Assembly (NCBI RefSeq): GCF_000153345.1
Contig: NZ_CH724126.1
Span: forward strand, 656,493 to 720,492
Direction: 5' to 3'
Source of the DNA: Neptuniibacter caesariensis
GTDB lineage: Bacteria > Pseudomonadota > Gammaproteobacteria > Pseudomonadales > Balneatricaceae
DNA: 64,000 bases
Shown one piece after another: positions 9,801 through 30,645 of the stretch (the first letter of the stretch is position 1; every line of letters starts with the position of its first letter). The notes under the pieces are model-generated. The model saw nothing but the letters and a program-made list of their open reading frames with translations. It made no database searches and was not told the DNA's origin. Both the position numbers and the translations under genes were made by a program.

Positions 9801-10603
9801 CATCTGAATGTCTTGAACTTGAAGTTCTGGAAAGTAGCGCCCTGCAGGATATCCAGCTGGTCTCCAAAGTTATGCAACGATGTAATGAACTAGGCGTTAG
9901 CTTCTCTTTAGATGATTTCGGCACCGGTTATTCCTCTTTGACTTATCTGAAGAGCTTGCCGGCGGCTAATTTAAAAATCGATCGTACGTTTGTGAGGGAT
10001 ATGCTGGATGACCCGGATGACCTGGCAATCCTTGAGGGTGTTGTTGGAATGTCGACAGCGTTTCGTCGTGGCGTTATTGCTGAAGGTGTTGAAGAGATTG
10101 CCCATGGGGAAATGTTGATCAAATTAGGGTGCAATCTTGCTCAAGGTTTTGCGATTGCTAAACCGATGAAGGCAGCATTAATACCTGACTGGATCAGTAG
10201 TTGGAATCCGCCAAAAGAGTGGCAAGAGCAAGGGCCGATTAGTCGCGATGATATCTCTTTACTGTTCGCCGAAATAGAACATAGAGCCTGGTTGCATAAG
10301 GTTGACCGCTTTGTCGCTGCAGAGGAACCGGAAGAGTTAGAACTACCTGAATTTGATGTAAGCAAATGTCGCTTTGGCTCATGGTTGGATAAACATGGTA
10401 GAGAGCAGTATGGGGAAGCGAAAGCATTTATCAATCTGGATGATCTTCATGAGAAAGTCCATGTAAGCGGTGAGTTAGCATGCAAAGCGGCCTTAAAAGG
10501 GGATGTGAAAGCGATAAAAAAACATCAGACTGATCTGCACAAATATAGTCACGATTTGCTGAATGTCCTGATGTTAATCTTGCAAGAGCAAAGCCCGGGT
10601 TAA
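6851..10603 (+). CDS. CHASE-PAS-GGDEF-EAL-CZB cyclic-di-GMP enzyme
   Basis: Inner-membrane multi-sensor protein of 1250 residues for c-di-GMP turnover. Order: transmembrane helix (about 8-27); periplasmic CHASE-type domain (YPLEGNETALGLDL); second transmembrane helix (about 257-280); three PAS/PAC units (about 310-690); GGDEF near residue 770 with an inhibitory-site REGD five residues before it; EAL near residue 900 (GLEALIRW, DDFGTGYSSL, AEGVEE); and a C-terminal domain after about 1120. That last domain matches the zinc-binding CZB pattern: HRAW, CRFGSW, HEKVH, then a final His. Both catalytic domains look intact, so net activity cannot be called. The CZB end suggests zinc or hypochlorite-type control. 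It is monocistronic or co-transcribed with mobA 59 bases downstream. Confidence 0.93.
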   Translation: MKRLFPVINVLSLFLLVILAAGAVYVESLIAKRLETETRATLQNHLYTVKNRIENNLLSDLQLAKGLVAAVATKPQLSQREFAQAAKSILYKHNQLLSVSAAPEMVLEMIYPLEGNETALGLDLKKVPEQFVAAERAKKTGQIVLSGPVDLVQGGSAFIARMPVFIENPQGKNTFWGLVSALIDEKSLYINSQLIGTDLPVEVAIRGRDALGEEGETFFGRADLFEDAAVFAELQLPVGSWQLAAIATGSLPEVGAFVWPMRIGYALSAFAILLSFFVMNIALKRTVSAQERAETAQSELQASLKSLNERETLLRTVIDEMPDVLVLKDHKGNFLLGNNTVARLYNTTPEEMVGKNDADFGVPQEMADFFRENVLAIMEKGEPEVVMEDSTDTASGEVRHFKSIKKPFKDADGNNQILVIAQDITEIVEAQRQLEISEKKFRTILDSVDAYIYLKDKAGHYLFANRKVRELWGAAMEDIVGFGDDKFFDHPTAKNIQHNDRLVLDDGQTLKVEEVNTLPGGGTTTYQSTKLPLRSEDGDIYALCGISVDITELKNIEKALRISEQRFKIAGEAAYDLIYEWDVETDSLHWFGDIDDLLGYPKGSISQDISAWLNLIHPEDKDLLGDAVERHRTSTQPIKYEYRIQHKKGHYLYLSDHALPLLDENRRPYRWIGVCTDITTQKEQQLLLEFNAYHDKLTNLPNRVLLADRLSQAMHQQKRRGQTLAVVYIDLDGFKQINDQYGHDVGDVLLVEIGQRFQTLLREGDTIARLGGDEFVAVMLDINSSMDSIPLLRRILHAISVPVLVDDVVLQVSASLGVTFYPQAEDVDGDQLLRQADQAMYQAKLEGKNRYYFFDMEHDRSLRGQRETVERIELGLRQREFELYYQPKVNMHSGDVIGLEALIRWNHPEDGLLMPGQFLPVIEDKPVAIEIGEWVIEDALRQMDAWSFQGHDLSVSVNIGGLQLQQDNFVERLEALLKKFPRVASECLELEVLESSALQDIQLVSKVMQRCNELGVSFSLDDFGTGYSSLTYLKSLPAANLKIDRTFVRDMLDDPDDLAILEGVVGMSTAFRRGVIAEGVEEIAHGEMLIKLGCNLAQGFAIAKPMKAALIPDWISSWNPPKEWQEQGPISRDDISLLFAEIEHRAWLHKVDRFVAAEEPEELELPEFDVSKCRFGSWLDKHGREQYGEAKAFINLDDLHEKVHVSGELACKAALKGDVKAIKKHQTDLHKYSHDLLNVLMLILQEQSPG

Positions 10604-10662
10604 GGTTTGTTGGTCTATATCTTGCTGCTGATAACAGCGATATCAGTATTAAGGTGGAGACT

Positions 10663-11253
10663 ATGGGAACAACTGTCAGTGAATACAAGCTCGCTGCAGT
10701 CGCTTTGGCTGGTGGGAAAGCGGTGCGAATGGAGGGGCTTGATAAAGGCCTTCAGCAATACAAAGGGCGTCCATTGGTGTGCTGGACACTGGATTGCTTA
10801 AAACCCCTGACACAGGATATTGTGCTGAGTTGTAATCGCAATGAAGAGATTTATGCAAACTTAGGTTATCCCACTTGTGCAGATTTGCATGCTCCGGAAA
10901 AGGGCCCGCTAGCCGGAATTGAATCGGCTATGCATTATTTTGGTGCTTGCTGTACTCACCTCTTAGTGCTGCCCTGTGATACGCCAGACATATCAACTGA
11001 GCATCTGAAATTATTGTTGGATGCTTCCCGATCAGAGCCTCAGAGTGTTGTCGTTTTAAAGAGCCCCGAAGGTACCCAATATCTTCATGCCATTATTCCT
11101 GTGGAATATTACTCTGAGCTAGAGCGGTTTCTGGCTCAGGGAAGACGTGCAGTCAGGCACTGGTATCAAACACTCCCCGTGCTTGAGGTTAAGACAACAG
11201 AGTCACTGCCTAATCTAAACTATCAACATCAACTCACTGATTCTGCGGCTTAA
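10663..11253 (+). CDS. mobA: Molybdenum cofactor guanylyltransferase
   Basis: MobA transfers GMP from GTP to molybdopterin, making the MGD cofactor for nitrate reductase, formate dehydrogenase and similar enzymes. Seen are the nucleotide-binding N-terminus LAGGKAVRMEGLDKGL, the GPLAGIESAM segment and the Mg-binding LPCDTPDI motif. The length of 196 residues is normal for the family. ATG at 10663 is chosen because AAGGTGGAG precedes it; a GTG at 10654 is also possible. It is a short distance after the c-di-GMP enzyme and before the broken nfo gene. Confidence 0.93.
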   Translation: MGTTVSEYKLAAVALAGGKAVRMEGLDKGLQQYKGRPLVCWTLDCLKPLTQDIVLSCNRNEEIYANLGYPTCADLHAPEKGPLAGIESAMHYFGACCTHLLVLPCDTPDISTEHLKLLLDASRSEPQSVVVLKSPEGTQYLHAIIPVEYYSELERFLAQGRRAVRHWYQTLPVLEVKTTESLPNLNYQHQLTDSAA

Positions 11254-11315
11254 TGACTTTCGGTCATTCTTCTTAGCTGATATGGTTGCGCCGTTAATAA
11301 TCAGGCTAAAAAGTG

Positions 11316-11456
11316 ATGACCGATCTAAAACCATACTATGTAGGTGCTCATGTAAGTGCCAGCGGTGGCGTGCAAAATGCCCCTATCAATGCGAACCATA
11401 TTGGCGCAAATGCGTTTGCCTTGTTCACAAAGAACCAGCGTATTTGGTTGTTTTAG
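11316..11456 (+). pseudogene. nfo: Endonuclease IV, N-terminal fragment (interrupted by element)
   Basis: The 46-codon frame encodes the Nfo N-terminus ([14 protein letters not shown], then FALFTKNQR). After Gln-Arg it runs into element DNA and stops at TAG (11454-11456). The last native codons are at 11436-11442, the left copy of CAGCGTA. This piece carries the first beta strand but none of the metal ligands. The remainder resumes at 17150 in the matching frame. The gene starts 62 bases after mobA. Confidence 0.93.
11436..11442 (+). repeat. attL core CAGCGTA
   Basis: The left copy of the 7-bp crossover core shared with 17150-17156. Host sequence reads AAGAAC before it; element sequence TTTGGTTGTTTTAG follows. 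The exact crossover may be a subset of the seven bases. Confidence 0.85.
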
Positions 11457-11480
11457 CAAGGCAGTACATGCAGGGGGTGA

Positions 11481-11636
11481 TTCCACCCTAAGCTCCTGTA
11501 AGCCGCTGTAAGACCCCCTAAGACATGAAAACCTCTCAAAACCCCTTAGAGAGCCTCTGAGGGCCTCTGACAGCTCCGATTAGGGTCTCTAATACCCCTG
11601 AGAGCCTCTGTAAGCTCCTGTAAGCCTCTCTGAGGA
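11481..11636. repeat. Array of degenerate 10-bp repeats
   Basis: About sixteen consecutive units with 10-bp (occasionally 11-bp) spacing and a loose consensus AGCCTCTGTA. Clear units include CCCTAAG-N3-CTGTAAG-N3-CTGTAAG-N3-CCCTAAG (11486-11522), CCTCTGA-N3-CCTCTGA (11554-11570) and CTGTAAG-N3-CTGTAAG (11608-11624). Inverted pairs CTTACAG-N3-CTTACAG follow at 11684-11700. One unit per helical turn suggests a protein-binding array, for example for the element's ribbon-helix-helix proteins or recombinases. No gene lies here. Confidence 0.75.
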
Positions 11637-11729
11637 GTTTTTGTGTTTTACCCTAGTGTTTGTATAGGTGAAGGCGAAAACCTCTTACAGGGCCTTACAG
11701 GAGGCCTCAGGACTAAGACTAAAAAAAGC

Positions 11730-11758
11730 TTGACAAGGGTCGGAAATAGGCTTAAACT
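11730..11758 (+). promoter_or_regulatory. Sigma-70-like promoter inside the element
   Basis: TTGACA at 11730-11735, a 17-base spacer, then TAAACT at 11753-11758. It points into the gene-free region 11760-12690. No reading frame of useful size follows for over 900 bases, so it may drive a non-coding RNA or a long leader of the recombinase gene. Confidence 0.45.
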
Positions 11759-11803
11759 ATATTAAGGACTACTTAATAAATACTTATAACGTCTTTAATC
11801 AAT

Positions 11804-12111
11804 CCAAGTAAGTAACACATAGAAACCAAATAAAACATTCAAGTTCTTATTAAATATTTATTAAATATCTTATAACGTATTTTAAAGAATACGGTTTTGG
11901 ATCACTACTATGGTTCTCTTCTGATCTACTCTATTTCAAAGATCTTTCCTAAAGATTTTATAACAGCTTTCCTCAAGCCAAGTAGGTAAAGTCATAGTAA
12001 CCAAATAAAACATTCGAGTCCTTTGAAATATCTTATAAAGCTTCTATAACATATTTTAAAGAATACGGTTTCGGGTCACTACTACTCTTCTCTCCTGATC
12101 TATTCTCTTTT
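11804..12111. repeat. Duplicated AT-rich block of about 130 bp
   Basis: Copy A is about 11804-11934 and copy B about 11978-12111. Shared words in the same order are CCAAGTA, CATAG, AACCAAATAAAACATTC, AAATATCTTATAA, ATTTTAAAGAATACGGTTT, GGTTCTCTTCTGATCTA-like sequence and CTATTTC-like ends. Small insertions and deletions separate the copies. The block has no coding frame. Possible roles are an origin, a binding region or paired small RNAs. The whole gene-free stretch is 11457-12690. Confidence 0.7.
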
Positions 12112-12135
12112 AACGTTATTTCTTAAATCCTTATA

Positions 12136-12189
12136 AATTGTACAGTTATTTGGTGATCCTCTGTTATGTGTGATCAAGTTTGTACAATT
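12136..12189. repeat. Large interrupted palindrome in the element
   Basis: AATTGTACA (12136-12144) and TGTACAATT (12181-12189) are exact inverted 9-mers. TGATC and GATCA form a second inverted pair inside them. It could be a crossover or accessory site for the small serine recombinase 500 bases downstream, or an operator. Confidence 0.45.
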
Positions 12190-12619
12190 CTTGTATAGTT
12201 ACTCCAGAATACCTCTCTAAAAGTAGTTCGAACTACAATCTCCCCATATTTCAAATTCCCAAATCTCCCCCAAAATTTACACCCCCCTTTTCAGATTCCT
12301 GATAATTCCCTTGTTCAAAAAAGATAATCACCCTCTTACGTGTTTGGGTGTTTAGCCCTTGCATACGGTCTTTGTGAAATTAGATACAAAATCAAAAAGA
12401 TGACACCAGCCTTCACAGATCTTCCTGTATCACCTCCTGAGCTTCTCTGAGTGTTACTTGATCCAGTTTCAATATTATTGCTGGTGGACTGCTCAATGGC
12501 TGGTAGAAGCTTCAGGAGTATTTGTGGAAGGTGTATCAGCTTAGGTTACACCAAATCACCTGTCACCATGGGTATACCATTAGTGTACAGATAGAATTCA
12601 CCAGAAATATGTATTTTAT

Positions 12620-12636
12620 AGATTGCATTGCAATCT
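12620..12636. promoter_or_regulatory. 17-bp palindrome over the recombinase promoter
   Basis: AGATTGCA-T-TGCAATCT, perfect 8-bp arms with a one-base centre. It covers the -35 element of the promoter at 12628-12655, so it is a likely operator for control of the small recombinase gene. Confidence 0.6.
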
Positions 12637-12655
12637 TAAGTAGACACATTATACT
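12628..12655 (+). promoter_or_regulatory. Promoter of the small serine recombinase
   Basis: TTGCAA (12628-12633), a 16-base spacer and TATACT (12650-12655), 35 bases before the ATG at 12691. An AGGGAGA ribosome-binding site lies 8 bases before the start. Confidence 0.55.
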
Positions 12656-12690
12656 ATAGATAGCTTAGGAGATTTAAGGGAGACATTTTC

Positions 12691-13326
12691 ATGAAAGTAT
12701 ATGCATATCTACGAGCTTCTACAGAAGAACAAGATGCAACTAGAGCAGCAGAAGTATTAATTAAGTTTGCTCAGGAGAAAGGGTTCGAAATTGCTGAATA
12801 CTTTGTTGAGAATGCTTCAGGAACGAAGCTAGATAGACCAAAGCTAATTGAGCTGATTAATACAGCCGGAGAAGGAGATGTACTGTTAGTTGAGCAAGTG
12901 GACAGACTGACAAGGTTAACGGCTGAAGATTGGAGTACTTTGAAACGTACTATTGAGGATAAGGGGCTGTTGGTTGTGTCTCTGGACTTACCTACCAGCT
13001 TTGCAGCACTACAAGCTGATGATCAATCTTTTACAGGCGATATTCTGAAAGCGGTTAACCGCATGTTGATGGATATTCTTGCTACCACCGCCCGCAAGGA
13101 TCAGGAAGATAGGCTTCGTAGACAGAGACAAGGAATTAAAAGAGCACAGGATGCTGGCAAGTACAATGGTCGTCAACAGACTGAGGAAGGGGCCAAGAAG
13201 GTTAAGAAGTTTTATCAGCAGATAGATCTTGGAAATAATGTGGCAGATAGCGCCAAGGTCGCAGATATTTCCAGAGCCTATGGGTACAAGCTGATTAAGA
13301 TGAGGAAGATGGAAGCTAAATTATAA
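12691..13326 (+). CDS. Small serine recombinase (resolvase/invertase family)
   Basis: A site-specific recombinase of 211 residues with the resolvase N-terminal fold. YLRAST places the nucleophile near Ser10, LVEQVDRLTRL is the conserved Arg region, and the long E helix (about 125-150) ends in EDRLRRQRQGIKRAQ. The C-terminal part is short, with a helix-turn-helix-like tail (about 185-205). Unlike the 544-residue integrase in this element, its size fits resolvases and invertases, so it may resolve dimers or invert a segment. The palindrome at 12136-12189 is a candidate site. It is transcribed towards the operon, with a terminator directly after it. Confidence 0.87.
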   Translation: MKVYAYLRASTEEQDATRAAEVLIKFAQEKGFEIAEYFVENASGTKLDRPKLIELINTAGEGDVLLVEQVDRLTRLTAEDWSTLKRTIEDKGLLVVSLDLPTSFAALQADDQSFTGDILKAVNRMLMDILATTARKDQEDRLRRQRQGIKRAQDAGKYNGRQQTEEGAKKVKKFYQQIDLGNNVADSAKVADISRAYGYKLIKMRKMEAKL

Positions 13327-13352
13327 TATCGTTACACCTCCCTAATGTGAAT

Positions 13353-13379
13353 AGGCTGCCATATGGGTGGCCTTTTTTT
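13353..13379 (+). terminator. Rho-independent terminator of the small recombinase
   Basis: AGGCTGCC pairs with GGTGGCCT (two G-U pairs) around a 5-base loop. Seven T residues follow. The hairpin starts 27 bases after the stop codon. Confidence 0.8.
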
Positions 13380-13410
13380 ATGCCTATAGGAAAATATTTA
13401 AGACAAATAA

Positions 13411-13453
13411 AAAAGCCCCCAAAGTAGTTGCGAGTTCTACTAAGAGGGCTTTT
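13411..13453. terminator. Bidirectional terminator inside the element
   Basis: AAAAGCCC (13411-13418) pairs with GGGCTTTT (13446-13453), and an inner AGTAG pairs with CTACT. On the minus strand the hairpin is followed by a T-run, so it suits the end of the operon reading from 15144. Between here and 13735 is about 280 bases without a supported gene; three more decamer-like units (CTGAGAGCTT, CTGTAAGGCT, CTATAAGAGG) lie at 13671-13700. Confidence 0.75.
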
Positions 13454-13735
13454 GGCACAATGTAAGGAGATTGTTATTTATGGCTATTACATGTGATTTA
13501 ATTAATATGTTAATTGTTTCTGGTATTGTTTAGTATCTCTGAAAGGTGCATGAATACTGAATAAGTTATAGTTTTCAACCTCGATCAGGTATTTTTTATT
13601 TTGAATAGCTAAGAAAGGGTGGATCAGCTAAATCAATAAAGGAGTATTTAATAGGAAATTAACAGGTGTTCTGAGAGCTTCTGTAAGGCTCTATAAGAGG
13701 TTTTAATTAAACCTAATGAATCTATCTAATTTAAA

Positions 13736-14281
13736 TTAAGAGGCTTTCTTGGAGGCTCTCACAGCTTCTCTGAATGCTTTTGAATTCATGTTAATAATTT
13801 TATCACCATTAAGATCTTCAATCAGGGATTTTAATTGATCTTGAGACAGTAATTCTAAATCATTATATTGCTGATATGGATTTGCTCTAACTACTTTAAC
13901 TTCTTGATAGTGGCCTTTTGACTTAATCAGGTCAGTAGATTTAGAGCTTTCAATAATTAAAGGTAACTCAGATTCTTTGTTGTCAGGAGTGATATGTTTA
14001 TTCTTACGAATTCGCTTCATGACCTCTTGGCCTATGCGCTGAGATATATCGTTATCAGAAGTAAGGTCAGTTCTAGAAGAAGATAAGTTATCAGAAAGAA
14101 GCGTTTGTAATCTCTCTTTATGAAGAAGTTCTGAACGTGCTCTCTCAGCTTTAGCTTTAAATACTCTCTTACGTTCTGTTTCAGCTTGTTTAGCTTCTGT
14201 AATCTGTTTCTGAAGATCCCTCTCATACTGTTCTGCTTGTTCCTGTAAATGCTGTTTGATGCTTTCTCTGTAATTCATCAC
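13736..14281 (-). CDS. Element protein of unknown function, coiled-coil
   Basis: A 181-residue protein I do not recognise. Residues 1-65 are highly charged and rich in Glu, Gln, Lys and Arg with few breaks, typical of a long coiled coil. The middle is Ser/Asn/Asp-rich and probably flexible. The C-terminus (about 155-181) is basic, ending AFREAVRASKKAS. It has no signal peptide or membrane segment. Its start overlaps the stop of the preceding gene by four bases (ATGA), so translation is coupled. As last gene of the operon it ends about 280 bases before a bidirectional terminator. Confidence 0.75.
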   Translation of the reverse strand: MMNYRESIKQHLQEQAEQYERDLQKQITEAKQAETERKRVFKAKAERARSELLHKERLQTLLSDNLSSSRTDLTSDNDISQRIGQEVMKRIRKNKHITPDNKESELPLIIESSKSTDLIKSKGHYQEVKVVRANPYQQYNDLELLSQDQLKSLIEDLNGDKIINMNSKAFREAVRASKKAS

Positions 14282-14811
14282 TGTAAACTCCTTAAGAATT
14301 CGTCTTCTTCTGCTTCTGCTTCAATAGCTAAACGTTCTTGTTCACGTTGGTATGCTTTGAAAGCTTCATAGTCTTCCACATAGGCTTTCTTAGCCTCTGA
14401 TAGGGCTTTCTTAAAACCTTCTACGTCTTCACGTACAAGAGCCTCTGCTTCTGTCTGAAGGGCTTCCACTTCCTTCTTCACAAGGTCATTAGGTTTGATT
14501 AATTTGACCTGATTGATTAGTCCTGTACCTGCAAAGATAGCTTCACCGTTGATAGGTTCTAGGTATGAGTGAGATCGAACAAATTCTATTAGTGAATGGG
14601 GATTGTCAGTCTTAAATCTTACGTATTGAGTAGAACCGATTTCACCAAAGGATTCATTCCCATATTGTGATATCTCAGAGACTCCGTTGATGTATTTATC
14701 AAGTAACTCCTGGCATTTGTTGTTAACCATTTGTGTTCCTACACGGGGAACAGGAGCAGAAAGAGAATAAGTATTACCTTTGTAAGTAAATTCACGACTA
14801 GGTTTTTCCAT
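14278..14811 (-). CDS. Element protein of unknown function
   Basis: A 177-residue protein without a recognised family. The N-terminal two thirds look like a compact mixed alpha/beta domain (FTYKGNTYSLSAPVPR, then SLIEFVRSHSYLEP and EAIFAGTGLINQVK). The C-terminal third is a long acidic helix rich in Glu and Ala, ending EAEEDEFLRSLQ. No secretion signal is present. Its start lies 14 bases inside the end of the second ribbon-helix-helix gene, and its end overlaps the next gene by four bases. The tight coupling implies the four products work in one process. Confidence 0.75.
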   Translation of the reverse strand: MEKPSREFTYKGNTYSLSAPVPRVGTQMVNNKCQELLDKYINGVSEISQYGNESFGEIGSTQYVRFKTDNPHSLIEFVRSHSYLEPINGEAIFAGTGLINQVKLIKPNDLVKKEVEALQTEAEALVREDVEGFKKALSEAKKAYVEDYEAFKAYQREQERLAIEAEAEEDEFLRSLQ

Positions 14812-14965
14812 TGTTTTCTTCCTCCTCTTTATCTATTGCATTTTTAAGAAGTTCAATCATGTTTTCGATTAATCGAGATGAACTGATATCTTGTGAATCT
14901 GCATATTCTTTTAGGAAGGTTTTTAATTCAGGTTTGATACGTACGTATAAGTTCTGTCGTGCCAT
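14798..14965 (-). CDS. Ribbon-helix-helix DNA-binding protein (second of two)
   Basis: A 55-residue protein. NLYVRIKPELKTFLKEYA is a classic Arc/MetJ/CopG-type beta strand and first helix, and SSSRLIENMIELLKNAI is the second helix. An acidic tail follows (DKEEEE). Such proteins bind operators as dimers of dimers and often repress their own operons, or act as antitoxins or partition factors. Its ATG overlaps the stop of the preceding gene in TAATG. It is too short to stand out on length alone, but fold and overlaps support it. Confidence 0.8.
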   Translation of the reverse strand: MARQNLYVRIKPELKTFLKEYADSQDISSSRLIENMIELLKNAIDKEEEENNGKT

Positions 14966-15144
14966 TATTGATTACCTCTTAATTCTTTAAGCCCTTTCTC
15001 AATAATTGATCTGATAATCTCAGAGCTACTTGTATTAGAGAGTTCAGCTATCTTGTAGATGAATTTTTTATCTTCAGCTTTAACTGTTGTGCCAATAGCG
15101 TATTTGGCTTGGTACTCTTTCTGATATGTCCGTTTATCTGTCAT
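14965..15144 (-). CDS. Small ribbon-helix-helix-like protein (first gene of operon)
   Basis: A 59-residue protein: a basic N-terminus (MTDKRTYQKEYQAKY), a short strand (IGTTVKAEDKKF), then two helices (IYKIAELSN and SSSEIIRSIIEKGLKEL). This fits the ribbon-helix-helix pattern of small repressors, although the match is weaker than in the next gene. It is the promoter-proximal gene of the element's minus-strand operon, preceded by a leader of about 210 bases with stable hairpins. It could repress its own promoter, where an inverted repeat is seen. Confidence 0.72.
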   Translation of the reverse strand: MTDKRTYQKEYQAKYAIGTTVKAEDKKFIYKIAELSNTSSSEIIRSIIEKGLKELRGNQ

Positions 15145-15232
15145 GGTTATAACCTCGCAATAGATTGATTAAAATAGAAACGGAAATACCCCGTAGGTAC
15201 GAGGTAAGTTGAATAGAATGGTGTAAAAAGAT

Positions 15233-15291
15233 CCCCCTCAGTAGCTGAGGATATCTATAAAAGATATTTGATGATGAATGCTAAGAGGGGG
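15233..15291 (-). promoter_or_regulatory. Structured leader of the element operon
   Basis: An outer stem of CCCCCT (15233-15238) and AGGGGG (15286-15291) encloses two hairpins: CCTCAG-TAG-CTGAGG (15236-15250) and ATATCT-ATAAA-AGATAT (15251-15267). The outer stem and first hairpin share a few bases, so they may be alternatives. The region lies between the operon promoter and its first gene. It could be an RNA control element or a DNA-binding palindrome. Confidence 0.45.
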
Positions 15292-15363
15292 TATGTTAAT
15301 CCCTAAATATGACTTAATAGGAACAACCCATTAATAAAGATTAAAATTAATAGGTCATAATAT

Positions 15364-15392
15364 ATTGTACAATGGATATTGCGATTTGTCAA
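15364..15392 (-). promoter_or_regulatory. Strong sigma-70-like promoter of the minus-strand operon
   Basis: On the minus strand TTGACA (15387-15392), a 17-base spacer and TACAAT (15364-15369). Inverted TATTGCGA (15377-15384) and TCGCAATA (15408-15415) flank the -35 box, a probable operator. The half-site core ATTGC is shared with the palindrome at 12620-12636. The gene-free stretch 15145-15451 holds this promoter and the structured leader. Confidence 0.75.
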
Positions 15393-15451
15393 GTAAATAA
15401 TAATCATTCGCAATAAGTTTTTAATAGATTTTAGGTGTTTTTATACTAATT

Positions 15452-17086
15452 TCACTCTGGATCGAATTCGAAATAATCTTCAATGTTCAGAGCTAAATCA
15501 GTTTTATCAATATAGTCAGACAGAAGTTCTGGATTGTTATAGTTTGCCCCTAAAGGAGCGCGTATTGGGTCGGGGATTTGCTGTGACAGGAAGGTGACGT
15601 AAACATCATTTTTCGTAACTTCAATCTTCTTAATGTACTGCTTTAAAAATAAGTTTAAATCACGCCTTCCCTGTTCTGATTCTAGATCTAATGAATCAAT
15701 CGATTTCATAGCTTCAGAGGGTTCAACGCTAGATAGTTTAGCTTTAGTGCTATCAATATCTGTTTTGATCTCATCTAGACTACTAGATAGCCTGTTGGCA
15801 TCTTTAACAAAGTTGGGAGCAGTAACACCAGCCTGAATAACAGCAGATAGGTTATTAAGTTTGGCTTCTGTATCTATCCTGTTTGTTTCCAGTTCTGCAA
15901 GTTTAGCTGTAAGGGCTTCATAATCTTCTGAATTGATCTTATTGAAGTTCAGGTAAGCTGTCATAGCTATCACAGAGCTAAGAACACCAGAGTAATTAAT
16001 CATTCCCTTGAAACAGGTAGTCTTTCTTTCATAGGTAGACTTACAGCGTAGATATTGATTAGGAGCGTGTTTCCTTCCTTTCTTTGGTGGTACATGATCA
16101 AACTTAATTGGACCTCCACAAACATGACAGCTTAGGAGGCCTGTGAGAGCGTTTCTGAAGGTTGTAGTCCTGCCTTTAGTTACTTTGGTGAAGGTGTCTT
16201 GAACTCGATAGAACAGCTCAGGATCAATCACAGTAGGGAAGTAATCAGTGATAGGGTCACCGACAGGTACACCCCTCTCTTTCAGTTGGTATTCACCGAT
16301 AACAGCTCTAGACTTAAGATAATTTACAACGGTAGTCTGTGACCATTTTGAAGGAACTTTTTTAACCTTCCCTGTCTTATCCTTGACGGGTTCACCATTC
16401 TCATCCTTAACTATCTTCAAACCGAATGCTCTGATTCCCTCTTCATTGAGAGTCTTCAAGATCTTAACTATTCCATAGCCTTTTGATCTCATGTCGTAGA
16501 TACGTTTAAGGGTTTCCACAAATTCTGGGATCTCTTCAAAGGTTTGAGTGTCTTTATTCAGCTTTAACCACTTAGGACAATTACCAGTGAACTTAACTTC
16601 CCCTGCTAAGGTTTTCTCCCTCTTAGCTTGTTTCGCCTTCCTAACCCTATCTGACTTAGTTTGTGATTCTTCAGCCCCTCGGCTCATGTAGGTCAAAGCA
16701 ACCATGAGGTCCATTTGATCACAGTCAGGGGAGTAAACCTTCTCATCCATCAAGGTGATGATAGTTACATCAAGATCCAGAAGCTGTAGTAGTAGGCCGA
16801 ATGCTTTACGTACATGCTCTCTGGATAACCTATCAAGGTTTTCTACAAGCAATGAGCAGGGGGTTTGGATAGCTCCACTCTCACACCCTTTGATGAAAGC
16901 ACCCAGAGCACCAGTATCAGCGTTAGCTCCCTTCCATGCTGATATACCTAAGTCTTCGAAGGTTTGAGTAGATAGGGTTAGGTTATTCTTAGTACAGTAA
17001 GAGCGGATAGCTTCCGTTTGTCGCCTGAGTGAATCTCCTTGAGCTTGTGATTGTTTACTGAATCGGATGTATGAATAAGCTTTCAT
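15452..17086 (-). CDS. Large serine recombinase (integrase)
   Basis: The 544-residue integrase expected to insert and excise the element. The catalytic domain (about 1-150) has YIRFSKQSQ with the nucleophile at Ser10, and [12 protein letters not shown] recombinase domain follows (about 170-290, with [13 protein letters not shown] and [19 protein letters not shown]). A zinc ribbon (about 315-355) has CHVCG and two further Cys in YLRCKST and TTCFKG. The coiled-coil motif (about 375-450) controls directionality in this family. It starts 64 bases inside attR, the usual location, and reads into the element. No separate recombination directionality factor was identified; the small operon proteins are candidates. 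Confidence 0.93.
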
Positions 17087-17119
17087 TCTGGCTATCCCCT
17101 GTCGGTTGTTAATGGGGAC

Positions 17120-17148
17120 ATTCTACGCTTTGCCATAACAATTAACAA
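17120..17148 (-). promoter_or_regulatory. Integrase promoter overlapping the attachment arm
   Basis: On the minus strand TTGTTA (17143-17148), a 17-base spacer and TAGAAT (17120-17125), 34 bases before the integrase start. The -35 box abuts the crossover core. TCTACGCT (17123-17130) and AGCGTAGA (17151-17158) form an inverted pair around it, so integrase binding could repress its own promoter. Confidence 0.55.
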
Positions 17149-17149
17149 T

Positions 17150-17156
17150 CAGCGTA
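17150..17156 (+). repeat. attR core CAGCGTA
   Basis: The right copy of the crossover core. Element DNA ATTAACAAT precedes it; nfo sequence AGATGGGTAGCC, in the correct frame, overlaps its end and continues. Joining element ends gives an attP with imperfectly inverted arms, each starting TGCC and containing AACAA. Confidence 0.85.
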
Positions 17157-17896
17157 GATGGGTAGCCAAACCGTTAGATAACAAGACGGTCAGTTCATTT
17201 AAGAAAAATTGCCAGGCCTTGGGGTTTACTCCTGAACAGATCCTTCCGCACGATTCCTACCTGATTAATTTAGGGCATCCTGAAGAGGAAGCTTTGCAGA
17301 AATCTCGTGATGCTTTTCTCGATGAGATGCAGCGCTGCGAGCAGCTAGGGTTGGTTTATCTCAACTTTCATCCGGGTAGCCATCTGCGCAAGATTAGTGA
17401 AGATGAGTGTATTTCGAGGATCGCAGATTCCCTGAACTGGGCAATTGCTCAAACTGATTCTGTAATCGCCGTCATTGAAAACACGGCGGGTCAGGGTAGT
17501 AATCTGGGATTTAGCTTTGAGCAATTAGCAGCAATTATTGATCAAGTAGAAGATAAAAGCCGGGTAGGTGTGTGTATCGATACCTGCCACATGTTTGCAG
17601 CGGGTTACGATATTCGTACTCAAGAAAGTTGTGCAGAAGTTTTTCAAAGCTTTGAAGAGATTGTCGGATTCAAATATCTAAAAGGTATGCACCTGAACGA
17701 CTCCAAAGGTGGTTTGTCTTCCAATCTGGATCGTCATCATAGCCTTGGACAGGGAGAGATCGGTTTAGAAGTCTTTAGGTTTATTATGCGTGATGATCGT
17801 TTTCGTGGGATTCCGTTAGTACTGGAAACCATTGATGAGACGATATGGGCCGAAGAGATTCAGATGCTTCGTTTCTTTAATGCCGAGCAAACCTAG
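17150..17896 (+). pseudogene. nfo: Endonuclease IV, C-terminal fragment
   Basis: The rest of Nfo, an AP endonuclease that cuts at abasic sites in base excision repair. All nine tri-zinc ligands known for the E. coli enzyme fall here: [44 protein letters not shown] and VLETI. The fragment lacks about the first 42 residues, including strand one, and has no ATG. A TTG at 17219 (GFTPEQ) is the nearest usable start, so any product would miss more of the barrel. It is probably non-functional until excision. It reads in the same direction as the N-terminal part. Confidence 0.93.
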
Positions 17897-18006
17897 GCTC
17901 TATAGGTTTTGGTAGTTTGCCTGCTGCTTAGATAAACATTTTCACTCAAATGTAATATACAAAAGCTAGGCTACCGGGATAGTAATGATACCCGCTAGGT
18001 TTTGTA

Positions 18007-19818
18007 ATGTTGCCTTCAACTGATGAAGTCGGTGCCGATACTCGTCGCCAGTTGCTGTTAGAAATATTGGAAACAGAATCCCTTTTTCCTCATTTCCAGC
18101 CCATTGTGGATATGAAAAAAAATGAGGTGATAGGGCATGAAGCTCTGATTAGAGGCCCTGCTGGCAGTGTTATGGCATCGCCTGGCGCGCTCTTTCAAAC
18201 AGCGATAGAAAATAACCTTCTTCATACGCTCGAATTGCTTTGTCGTCGGTTTGCGATAGAAAAATTTGCAGAGTTAAAGCCGGGTGGGAAATTATTCCTC
18301 AATATCAGCGCTTCCTTGCTAGGTACACCCGAGCATACAGAAGGGTTTACGTCTGAACTTCTTCAGGAGCTGGGTATCTCGATCCAGGATATTGTTATCG
18401 AGCTGTCCGAGCAGCACCCTTTTGATCAACATGGGCTGACAAACAGTGCCGTCCAGTATTATCGCAATATGGGATTCCAGGTTGCTGTTGACGATCTGGG
18501 GACCGGATACTCCGGACTCAAACTTTGGTCAGAGTTAAACCCTGAATATGTAAAGATCGACCGGCATTTCGTTTCCCGTATCGATACTGATGCTGTGAAG
18601 CGGGAATTTGTACGCTCCATCTGCAACATCAGTAGTGCAATGGGTTGTAAAGTCATTGCGGAAGGGATTGAGCGAAGGGAAGAGGTCCAGACCCTGATGG
18701 AGTTAGGCATATCCATCGGTCAGGGCTTCTATCTTGGTTATCCTAGTCCTGAACCACAGCCTACCTGGACACCACTGGCGATCAATGAAATTCAGGTTGC
18801 AGAATCCATCGCTGAATCGGAAACAAACGAAACGGCTCTGGCCTTATTGCGACAGGCGCCAGCCGTCGCTCCCGACGACACAGTACTGGCGGTTAGCGAG
18901 TTGTTCAGGGCAAACTCAGATATGAGTGCTTTAGCCGTTGTTCAGGATGGGATCCCTTTAGGTGTTGTGCGCAAATCAGACCTACTTGAGTTGTTCTCAA
19001 CGCAATATGGTCGCGCGCTCTATGAGAAAAAACCGGCTTCCAGAATTCTATCTGACGATGTCCTTTTGGTTGAAAACGATATGAGCCTGGTTGATGTGTC
19101 GCGATTAGTTACCGGGCAGGAACATAGTGCACTGCAGCAGGATATCATTATTACTCAGGACGGCTGTTATCTTGGGATGGGTAACCTAAGAGATCTTTTG
19201 AAACGCATAACCGAATTGAAAATTCAGAATGCCCGCTATGCGAATCCATTGACTTTGTTGCCCGGCAATGTCCCTATTAATCAGGAGCTCGAAGCCCTGT
19301 TAAAACGGACTGCCGATTTCTATGTTGCCTATTTTGATCTGAATAACTTTAAGCCATTTAATGACAGCTATGGTTACTCAAAAGGGGATCAGGTTATTCG
19401 TCTGTTGGGTGAGCTTTTAACTTGTCACGCTTCGCATGCGAATAACTTTATCGGGCATATAGGCGGTGATGACTTTGTGGTGATCTTTAGAAGCCCTGAC
19501 TGGCAAATGAGTTGCGAAAGAATTCTGCGCGAGTTTGATAAAGAGGTCAGAGGGTTCTACTCACCTAAAGATCTGCAAAATGAGGGGTTGTGGTCCACAG
19601 ACCGTAAAGGGGTACGTTCATTTTTTCCATTGTTGGGCCTTGCTATCGGTGTTGTCCATCCTGACCCATACCGTTGTGGTAGTTTCCATGAAGTTGCAGA
19701 GCTCGCTGCGATGGCTAAGAAAGAGGCAAAAAAACATACTCATAGCGCGTTGTTTGTATCGAGAAGAAGAACAACGGGTTTATCGGTATCTGGCTCGGAC
19801 GATAAGCGTCAGGCTTAA
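18007..19818 (+). CDS. EAL-CBS-GGDEF cyclic-di-GMP phosphodiesterase-like protein
   Basis: A soluble protein of 603 residues. The N-terminal EAL domain (about 15-255) keeps GHEALIRG, LFLNIS, VIELSE, VDDLGTGYSG, VKIDRHF, AEGIE and GQGFYLGYP, so it is probably an active c-di-GMP phosphodiesterase. Two CBS units (about 280-400) may bind an adenine nucleotide. The C-terminal GGDEF domain (about 410-590) has GGDDF near residue 485 instead of GGDEF and no clear inhibitory site, so cyclase activity is doubtful and it may bind GTP as a regulator. No membrane segment is present. Its stop overlaps by four bases the end of the convergent SulP gene. Confidence 0.9.
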   Translation: MLPSTDEVGADTRRQLLLEILETESLFPHFQPIVDMKKNEVIGHEALIRGPAGSVMASPGALFQTAIENNLLHTLELLCRRFAIEKFAELKPGGKLFLNISASLLGTPEHTEGFTSELLQELGISIQDIVIELSEQHPFDQHGLTNSAVQYYRNMGFQVAVDDLGTGYSGLKLWSELNPEYVKIDRHFVSRIDTDAVKREFVRSICNISSAMGCKVIAEGIERREEVQTLMELGISIGQGFYLGYPSPEPQPTWTPLAINEIQVAESIAESETNETALALLRQAPAVAPDDTVLAVSELFRANSDMSALAVVQDGIPLGVVRKSDLLELFSTQYGRALYEKKPASRILSDDVLLVENDMSLVDVSRLVTGQEHSALQQDIIITQDGCYLGMGNLRDLLKRITELKIQNARYANPLTLLPGNVPINQELEALLKRTADFYVAYFDLNNFKPFNDSYGYSKGDQVIRLLGELLTCHASHANNFIGHIGGDDFVVIFRSPDWQMSCERILREFDKEVRGFYSPKDLQNEGLWSTDRKGVRSFFPLLGLAIGVVHPDPYRCGSFHEVAELAAMAKKEAKKHTHSALFVSRRRTTGLSVSGSDDKRQA

Positions 19819-30516: not shown

Positions 30517-30550
30517 TTGTAGAAATGACTTATAAGCTACCAATAATTGT

Positions 30551-30645
30551 CTAGCCTCTAGCCTCTAGCCTCTAGCCTCTAGCCTCTAGCCTCTAGCCTC
30601 TAGCCTCTAGCCTCTAGCCTCTAGCCTCTAGCCTCTAGCCTCTAG
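30551..30645. repeat. Heptamer tandem repeat, 13 perfect copies
   Basis: CTAGCCT repeated thirteen times without change, plus a final CTAG. On the minus strand it supplies the last codons and the stop (TAG) of the AhpA-like gene. The copy number is likely to vary between isolates. The array is not a CRISPR: there are no spacers. Confidence 0.95.

Follow-up and report, generated by a model that had tools for sequence, protein, structure and literature searches.

An integrative element, probably inserted by its own large serine recombinase, splits the endonuclease IV gene nfo of Neptuniibacter caesariensis

The integration of mobile elements into coding genes by large serine recombinases is a mechanism of a known class. 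In the main text of a catalogue of such elements (PMC10083194), they are described with the integrase gene at one end, a very short core and a gene for a conserved protein as the target. In Streptococcus pyogenes, the SpyCI islands are reported as small islands that break the 5' part of the DNA-repair gene mutL (PMC3430984, PMC4689407), and for SpyCIM1, a prophage-like island of 13.5 kb, excision, episomal replication and control by growth have been reported (PMC4689407). Here, we describe a locus of this kind in Neptuniibacter caesariensis, probably a marine bacterium, with a genome of 3.9 Mb in 6 contigs. The window that we analysed is a stretch of 64,000 nucleotides (contig NZ_CH724126.1, positions 656,493 to 720,492 of the forward strand), to which coordinates refer unless a locus is named. 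In this window, nfo, which encodes endonuclease IV, is interrupted at codon Gln36 by a 5.7-kb insert.

The left Nfo frame, which starts at 11313, is correct up to TKNQR and closes at a TAG at 11454, after 47 codons ending in TKNQRIWLF. The 5' part of nfo, up to Gln36/Arg37 (11313..11442, forward strand), is thus fused to element DNA. The frame picks up again at 17150, and the 3' part remains open over 248 codons (17150..17896, forward strand). Identical copies of CAGCGTA are present at both junctions, as the attL core (11436..11442, forward strand) and the attR core (17150..17156, forward strand), and their offset of 5714 bp corresponds to one copy plus 5707 bases. The first-pass annotation had claimed that the frame stops at 11454 and resumes at 17150 in the matching position, and that removal of one CAGCGTA copy together with the 5707 bases restores nfo. 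Reading the joined flanks confirmed both points, since they form a single open frame without a gap. Its claim that the exact ends can be read held in part: the shared core was located, but the ends are fixed only to within 7 bp because the CAGCGTA run is common to both of them, and the likely crossover dinucleotide, AG at 11437-11438, lies inside this run. The right nfo part scores 438 bits against the deoxyribonuclease IV equivalog of NCBIfam (cut-off 315), and its first residue aligns to Gln36 of E. coli endonuclease IV, which places the insertion point at Gln36-Arg37. Arg37 is among the residues that E. coli Nfo inserts into DNA. Among the named genomes listed, the closest nfo genes belong to Neptuniibacter (82-84% of amino acids). 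A MobA-like gene (Pfam) precedes nfo, and the same order was read in a relative (L005). Finally, the G+C content of the element is 0.38 vs 0.474 in the rest of the window.

The break in nfo is real and is not due to chance, because relatives carry FTKNQR(R/Q)W uninterrupted. Among 38 genomes searched, that of N. caesariensis included, 22 have nfo, and the remaining 21 of these all read unbroken through this motif; of the 37 genomes searched as relatives, 16 lacked an nfo match. We also scanned genome contigs, keeping the best 80 of 580 nfo loci, some of which probably represent the same species as among the 38 genomes. All 80 were uninterrupted: in 79, an automated check recovered the upstream motif in frame, and one (L131, with GAHCSAS) was seen to continue through the site by reading. 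The comparison with relatives lacking the element, put forward in the first-pass annotation, gave an uninterrupted gene in 21/21 relatives and 80/80 scanned loci. At the level of the class, nfo was detected in 52 of 369 genomes at E 1e-20 (own genome included), and the site was spanned in 49 of the 51 others. The two genomes without a spanning match are G478, in which only residues 158-283 of the C-terminal half matched, and G435, which has an assembly gap; the match from residue 43 in G435 was considered as a second split nfo and rejected on account of a run of N in the assembly. The nfo gene of G643 is broken by stops and frame shifts, with no element in the stretch read. In E. coli, at least 80% of nfo lies in one place in 5372 of 5375 genomes having a match, a count that leaves aside 3 partial matches and 51 genomes without a match. 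The filled nfo site was found in one genome only.

A gene encoding a large serine recombinase (integrase) of 544 residues lies at the right end of the element (15452..17086, reverse strand), and its start codon is 63 bp from the right core. This protein matches Pfam Resolvase with 69 bits (cut-off 23.3), Pfam Recombinase with 49.7 bits (cut-off 21.1) and the integrase family PHROG 95 with 259 bits, and a zinc ribbon falls just under the cut-off (24.6 of 25.3). No relative of it appeared in viral contigs or genome contigs, where the scans reach close relatives only, and no solved structure matched it by sequence at E 0.001. We then reconstructed attP by joining the two element ends and compared its symmetry, taken as the best of six centres, with that of 20,000 shuffles. 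Around the AG of C-AG-CGTA, the arms agree at 13 of 22 positions, and 57 of the 20,000 shuffles reach this value. The crossover is likely to be at this AG within the core, where the dyad symmetry of the reconstructed attP is best. The integrase gene at one end, the very short common core and the attP dyad symmetry are marks of serine integrases; they support precise integration of the element by its own large serine recombinase and back the serine-integrase insertion proposed in the first-pass annotation.

Taken together, we consider it very probable that a 5.7-kb integrative element entered nfo by means of its own large serine recombinase, with nfo as the attachment site. What can be read directly from the sequence is the pair of junctions, an unbroken nfo in relatives, an integrase gene next to one end and the symmetry of attP. 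In the proposed mechanism, attP on the circular form would recombine with an attB formed by the conserved codons around Gln36-Arg37. The element would pass through a circular, plasmid-like stage that perhaps replicates, a small serine recombinase encoded by the element may resolve multimers of the circular form, and ribbon-helix-helix-like proteins may bind 10-bp repeats for repression or partition, whereas transfer would rely on a helper. Most likely, the break in nfo is incidental to the use of a conserved target and is tolerated by the host, and it would be undone whenever the element leaves; the interruption could thus be reversible.

While the element is integrated, nfo should be off. The frame upstream of 17150 is open back to a TGA at 17072 and contains no ATG, GTG or TTG, and the first listed start is a TTG at 17219, so that full-length Nfo should not be made. 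A product starting at this TTG would lack approximately the first 58 residues (E. coli numbering). Two host genes for Xth-type apurinic/apyrimidinic endonucleases score over the curated family cut-off, and the loss of nfo is therefore probably tolerable. Moreover, nfo seems dispensable, judging by the 16 relatives without a match.

The small serine recombinase (211 residues, 12691..13326, forward strand) is of the resolvase/invertase type and matches Pfam Resolvase with 81.8 bits and the DNA invertase family PHROG 125 with 140.8 bits. Searched at E 1e-15 against 380 further genomes from the order, it has relatives in 29 of them, at 27-58% identity, and a relative from a phage collection, 37.2% identical, is annotated parA, plasmid stabilization resolvase. 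Between the two recombinase genes, a leftward run on the reverse strand encodes two small proteins that weakly resemble ribbon-helix-helix regulators or antitoxins, and two orphans. The protein of 55 residues (14798..14965) matches the Arc-like repressor family PHROG 3180 (E 2.4e-5) and, below cut-off, Pfam RHH_3 (17.5 bits of 21.6) and the RelB antitoxin of NCBIfam (20.2 of 50). The weaker candidate of 59 residues (14965..15144) matches Pfam RHH_1 (E 0.03) and the RelB antitoxin of NCBIfam, both below cut-off, and PHROG 876 (E 0.008). The orphan of 177 residues (14278..14811) has a predicted long C-terminal helix; its structure model, with a mean predicted local distance difference test score of 61, is too poor for a fold search, and neither 389 further genomes from the order nor plasmid or phage records contain a match to this protein. 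Its matches to solved structures by sequence (best E 0.0048) were rejected as weak. The orphan of 181 residues (13736..14281), the last of the run, has a GTG start that overlaps the end of the preceding gene. It belongs to no Pfam or NCBIfam family at cut-off and is unmatched in plasmid and phage records, and its one weak match in the same 389 genomes (a frame of 1041 residues, 29%, E 2.4e-4) was taken as chance. Neither the orphans nor the small recombinase had relatives in viral contigs, again within the reach of a scan for close relatives. PADLOC, run on four element proteins, returned a single weak match, MTase_II to the 181-residue orphan (E 0.0068).

The 1.2 kb adjoining the left junction contains no convincing gene and is rich in repeats. 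A stretch of 153 bp, the length of ∼15 degenerate units (11488..11640), has a 10-base self-match of 0.552, vs at most 0.420 in 2000 dinucleotide shuffles (best of periods 5-15). Its period-10 value of 0.567 is the highest of the window, where values elsewhere do not exceed 0.475, and no similar array was found in ten other fetched large-recombinase loci or flanks (highest value 0.442). Tandem Repeats Finder reports just 2.6 copies on the same stretch (11549-11574, score 38), as the units are degenerate. In plasmid centromeres, 10-bp repeats are described as bound by ribbon-helix-helix ParR proteins (PMC5016525), and by analogy the stretch may be a partition or repression site. With respect to a plasmid partition locus, the 10-bp periodicity is strong, Tandem Repeats Finder detects 2.6 copies and the ribbon-helix-helix matches are weak; no partition motor family (ParA, ParM or TubZ) was found in the six element proteins. 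An imperfect direct repeat of 174 bp in 1.9 copies (11784..12110, Tandem Repeats Finder) is a possible origin region. Inverted repeats at 11677-11713 and 13668-13704, with 37-bp arms that are 84% complementary, bracket the small recombinase gene; both arms seem to be copies of the 10-bp motif of the array. Elsewhere in the genome, no real copy of the left region was found, a partial match being the element's own 13668-13704 and two others being marginal, and phage records did not match it either. At gathering scores, Rfam returned no hit over 10000-19000, and promoter-like matches are at chance level (15 found vs 15.2 in shuffles). Outside the element, 13.7 copies of a 7-base unit follow one another in a perfect array (100% match) at 30550-30645 of the window.

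Across the order, the large serine recombinase has matches at E 1e-30 in 5 of 390 genomes (own included), at 8 places; among the matches listed are three other members of the genus (G003, G004 and G010). Another element with a large serine recombinase, ∼10 kb long, interrupts comM in this genome (region L043:17010-17672 with L034:3464-9476, contig C4, ∼493,000-504,500). The gene is broken between L043:17010-17672 and L034:8592, ∼10 kb apart, and the core repeat of the element could not be read. It encodes a relaxase of the Mob_Pre family and a replication protein of the Phage_GPA type, and its recombinase is 33% identical to that of the nfo element over residues 4-400. In two other genomes of the order, large-serine-recombinase genes are likewise located within or next to comM (L036 in G329 and L040 in G288), and by reading their positions relative to the gene differ; comM was assigned by Pfam in L034 and L036 and by reading in L040. 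comM is a competence gene. These three places fit the enrichment of competence genes among large serine recombinase targets stated in the text of PMC10083194.

A small serine recombinase is present in the same fetched stretch at 5 of the 8 large-recombinase places, the window included. Two records, MT836130.1 and PQ189284.1 (Vibrio phage record), resemble the nfo element in having a small serine recombinase on the forward strand, a large one on the reverse strand and a neighbouring gene that is YchJ-like or UPF0153-like. They differ in that their large recombinases are 28.7% and 23.4% identical and their small ones 45.6% and 29.6%, respectively, and neither record has a match to the 177- or 181-residue orphan. 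PQ189284.1 seems to open with a separate element carrying two serine recombinases (L033:1-6568), beside P2-like phage genes, and its recombinases adjoin two pieces annotated UPF0153 / zinc- or iron-chelating.

Several results weigh against the integrative-element reading. The attB reconstructed from nfo is asymmetric (8 of 22 positions, reached by 11,497 of 20,000 shuffles), and the site preference rests on a single case because no second copy was found. Searches of the six element proteins in Pfam, NCBIfam and PHROG recognised no family for replication, packaging or conjugation, so that autonomy and transfer are putative. Nor did they recognise the relaxase expected of an integrative mobilizable element, although an origin of transfer was not sought. 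The small recombinases in L037-L040 are just 25-29% identical. No large recombinase was seen in any of 32 stretches around small-recombinase relatives, some of them ended by contig ends and together covering 34 of the 40 listed matches outside the window (the other 6 were left out). A joint family of elements with both recombinases, considered in view of the 5 places out of 8, was dropped on this reverse count. Short contigs had hinted that the small-recombinase relatives are plasmid-borne, but reading of L156, L160, L170 and L177 did not support this, which slightly lowers our confidence in the integrative-element reading, and two of these loci (L156 and L170) look chromosomal.

The state of the right nfo part bears on what the insertion does to its host. 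This part has no stop. Compared with nine congeners, its mean proportion of nonsynonymous differences (pN) is 0.127; the means of the congeners themselves range over 0.105-0.157, so that the value falls inside their range although above 8 of these 9, with synonymous sites near saturation. As a weak test, this indicates no clear decay and would speak against a long-standing loss, and the open frame appears to fit a recent insertion as well as a reversible one. The open frame and this pN are also mildly in favour of a regulated switch, in which the element would exit upon a growth or DNA damage cue and turn endonuclease IV on, by analogy with SpyCI and mutL, which provide a precedent (PMC4689407, PMC3430984). 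However, recent insertion explains the frame equally, the pN exceeds most congener means, the filled site was found in a single genome, the element has no recognised directionality factor or regulator, and the two Xth homologues could cover the loss of nfo, so that we regard such a switch as quite unlikely. The opposite case, a dead insertion with an element unable to leave and nfo lost, has a modest chance of being true: the six proteins include no recognised transfer family and nfo seems dispensable, but the integrase frame is open with its recombinase domains and both nfo parts are otherwise undamaged.

The gene content of the element suggests two further possibilities. Its small size, its integrase with small regulators and the matches of its recombinases to PHROG 95 and 125 would suit a phage satellite packaged by a helper phage; this is unlikely, as the left region is unmatched in phage records and the six proteins gave no recognised family of the capsid-altering, packaging, helper-dependent or primase kind, although the two orphans among them could hide such a function. 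Inversion by the small recombinase of the 2-kb stretch between 11677-11713 and 13668-13704 has in its favour the complementary arms on both sides of its gene and a best PHROG match to a DNA invertase, yet we find it very unlikely, since the arms look like array motif copies and no gene was seen that inversion would newly express. Switch, satellite and inversion are each compatible with an integrative element inserted in nfo by its own recombinase, and the likelihoods that we give them are not exclusive. Also very unlikely is the fuller proposal of a minimal 5.7-kb episome that would move in and out of nfo, rely on a motor-less partition by ribbon-helix-helix proteins and 10-bp repeats, and so render base-excision repair conditional for a fraction of the cells.

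The nfo element, which probably entered by its own large serine recombinase, can be compared with known systems. It resembles the elements of PMC10083194 in mechanism, and nfo or endonuclease IV does not occur in the main text of that catalogue; we found no report of nfo as an attachment site in the open-access literature searched. Like the comM element of the same genome, it has its integrase at the right end and cuts a conserved gene, whereas the comM element is almost twice as large and carries Mob_Pre and Phage_GPA. As with the SpyCI islands, a DNA-repair gene is broken in its 5' part, but SpyCIM1, at 13.5 kb, has reported excision, episomal replication and growth control (PMC4689407), whereas for the 5.7-kb nfo element these are at most putative. 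The nfo element offers an integrase with readable attL, attR, attB and attP at a target without report in the open literature searched, and, if its excision is conditional, another DNA-repair gene besides mutL would be controlled by a mobile island.

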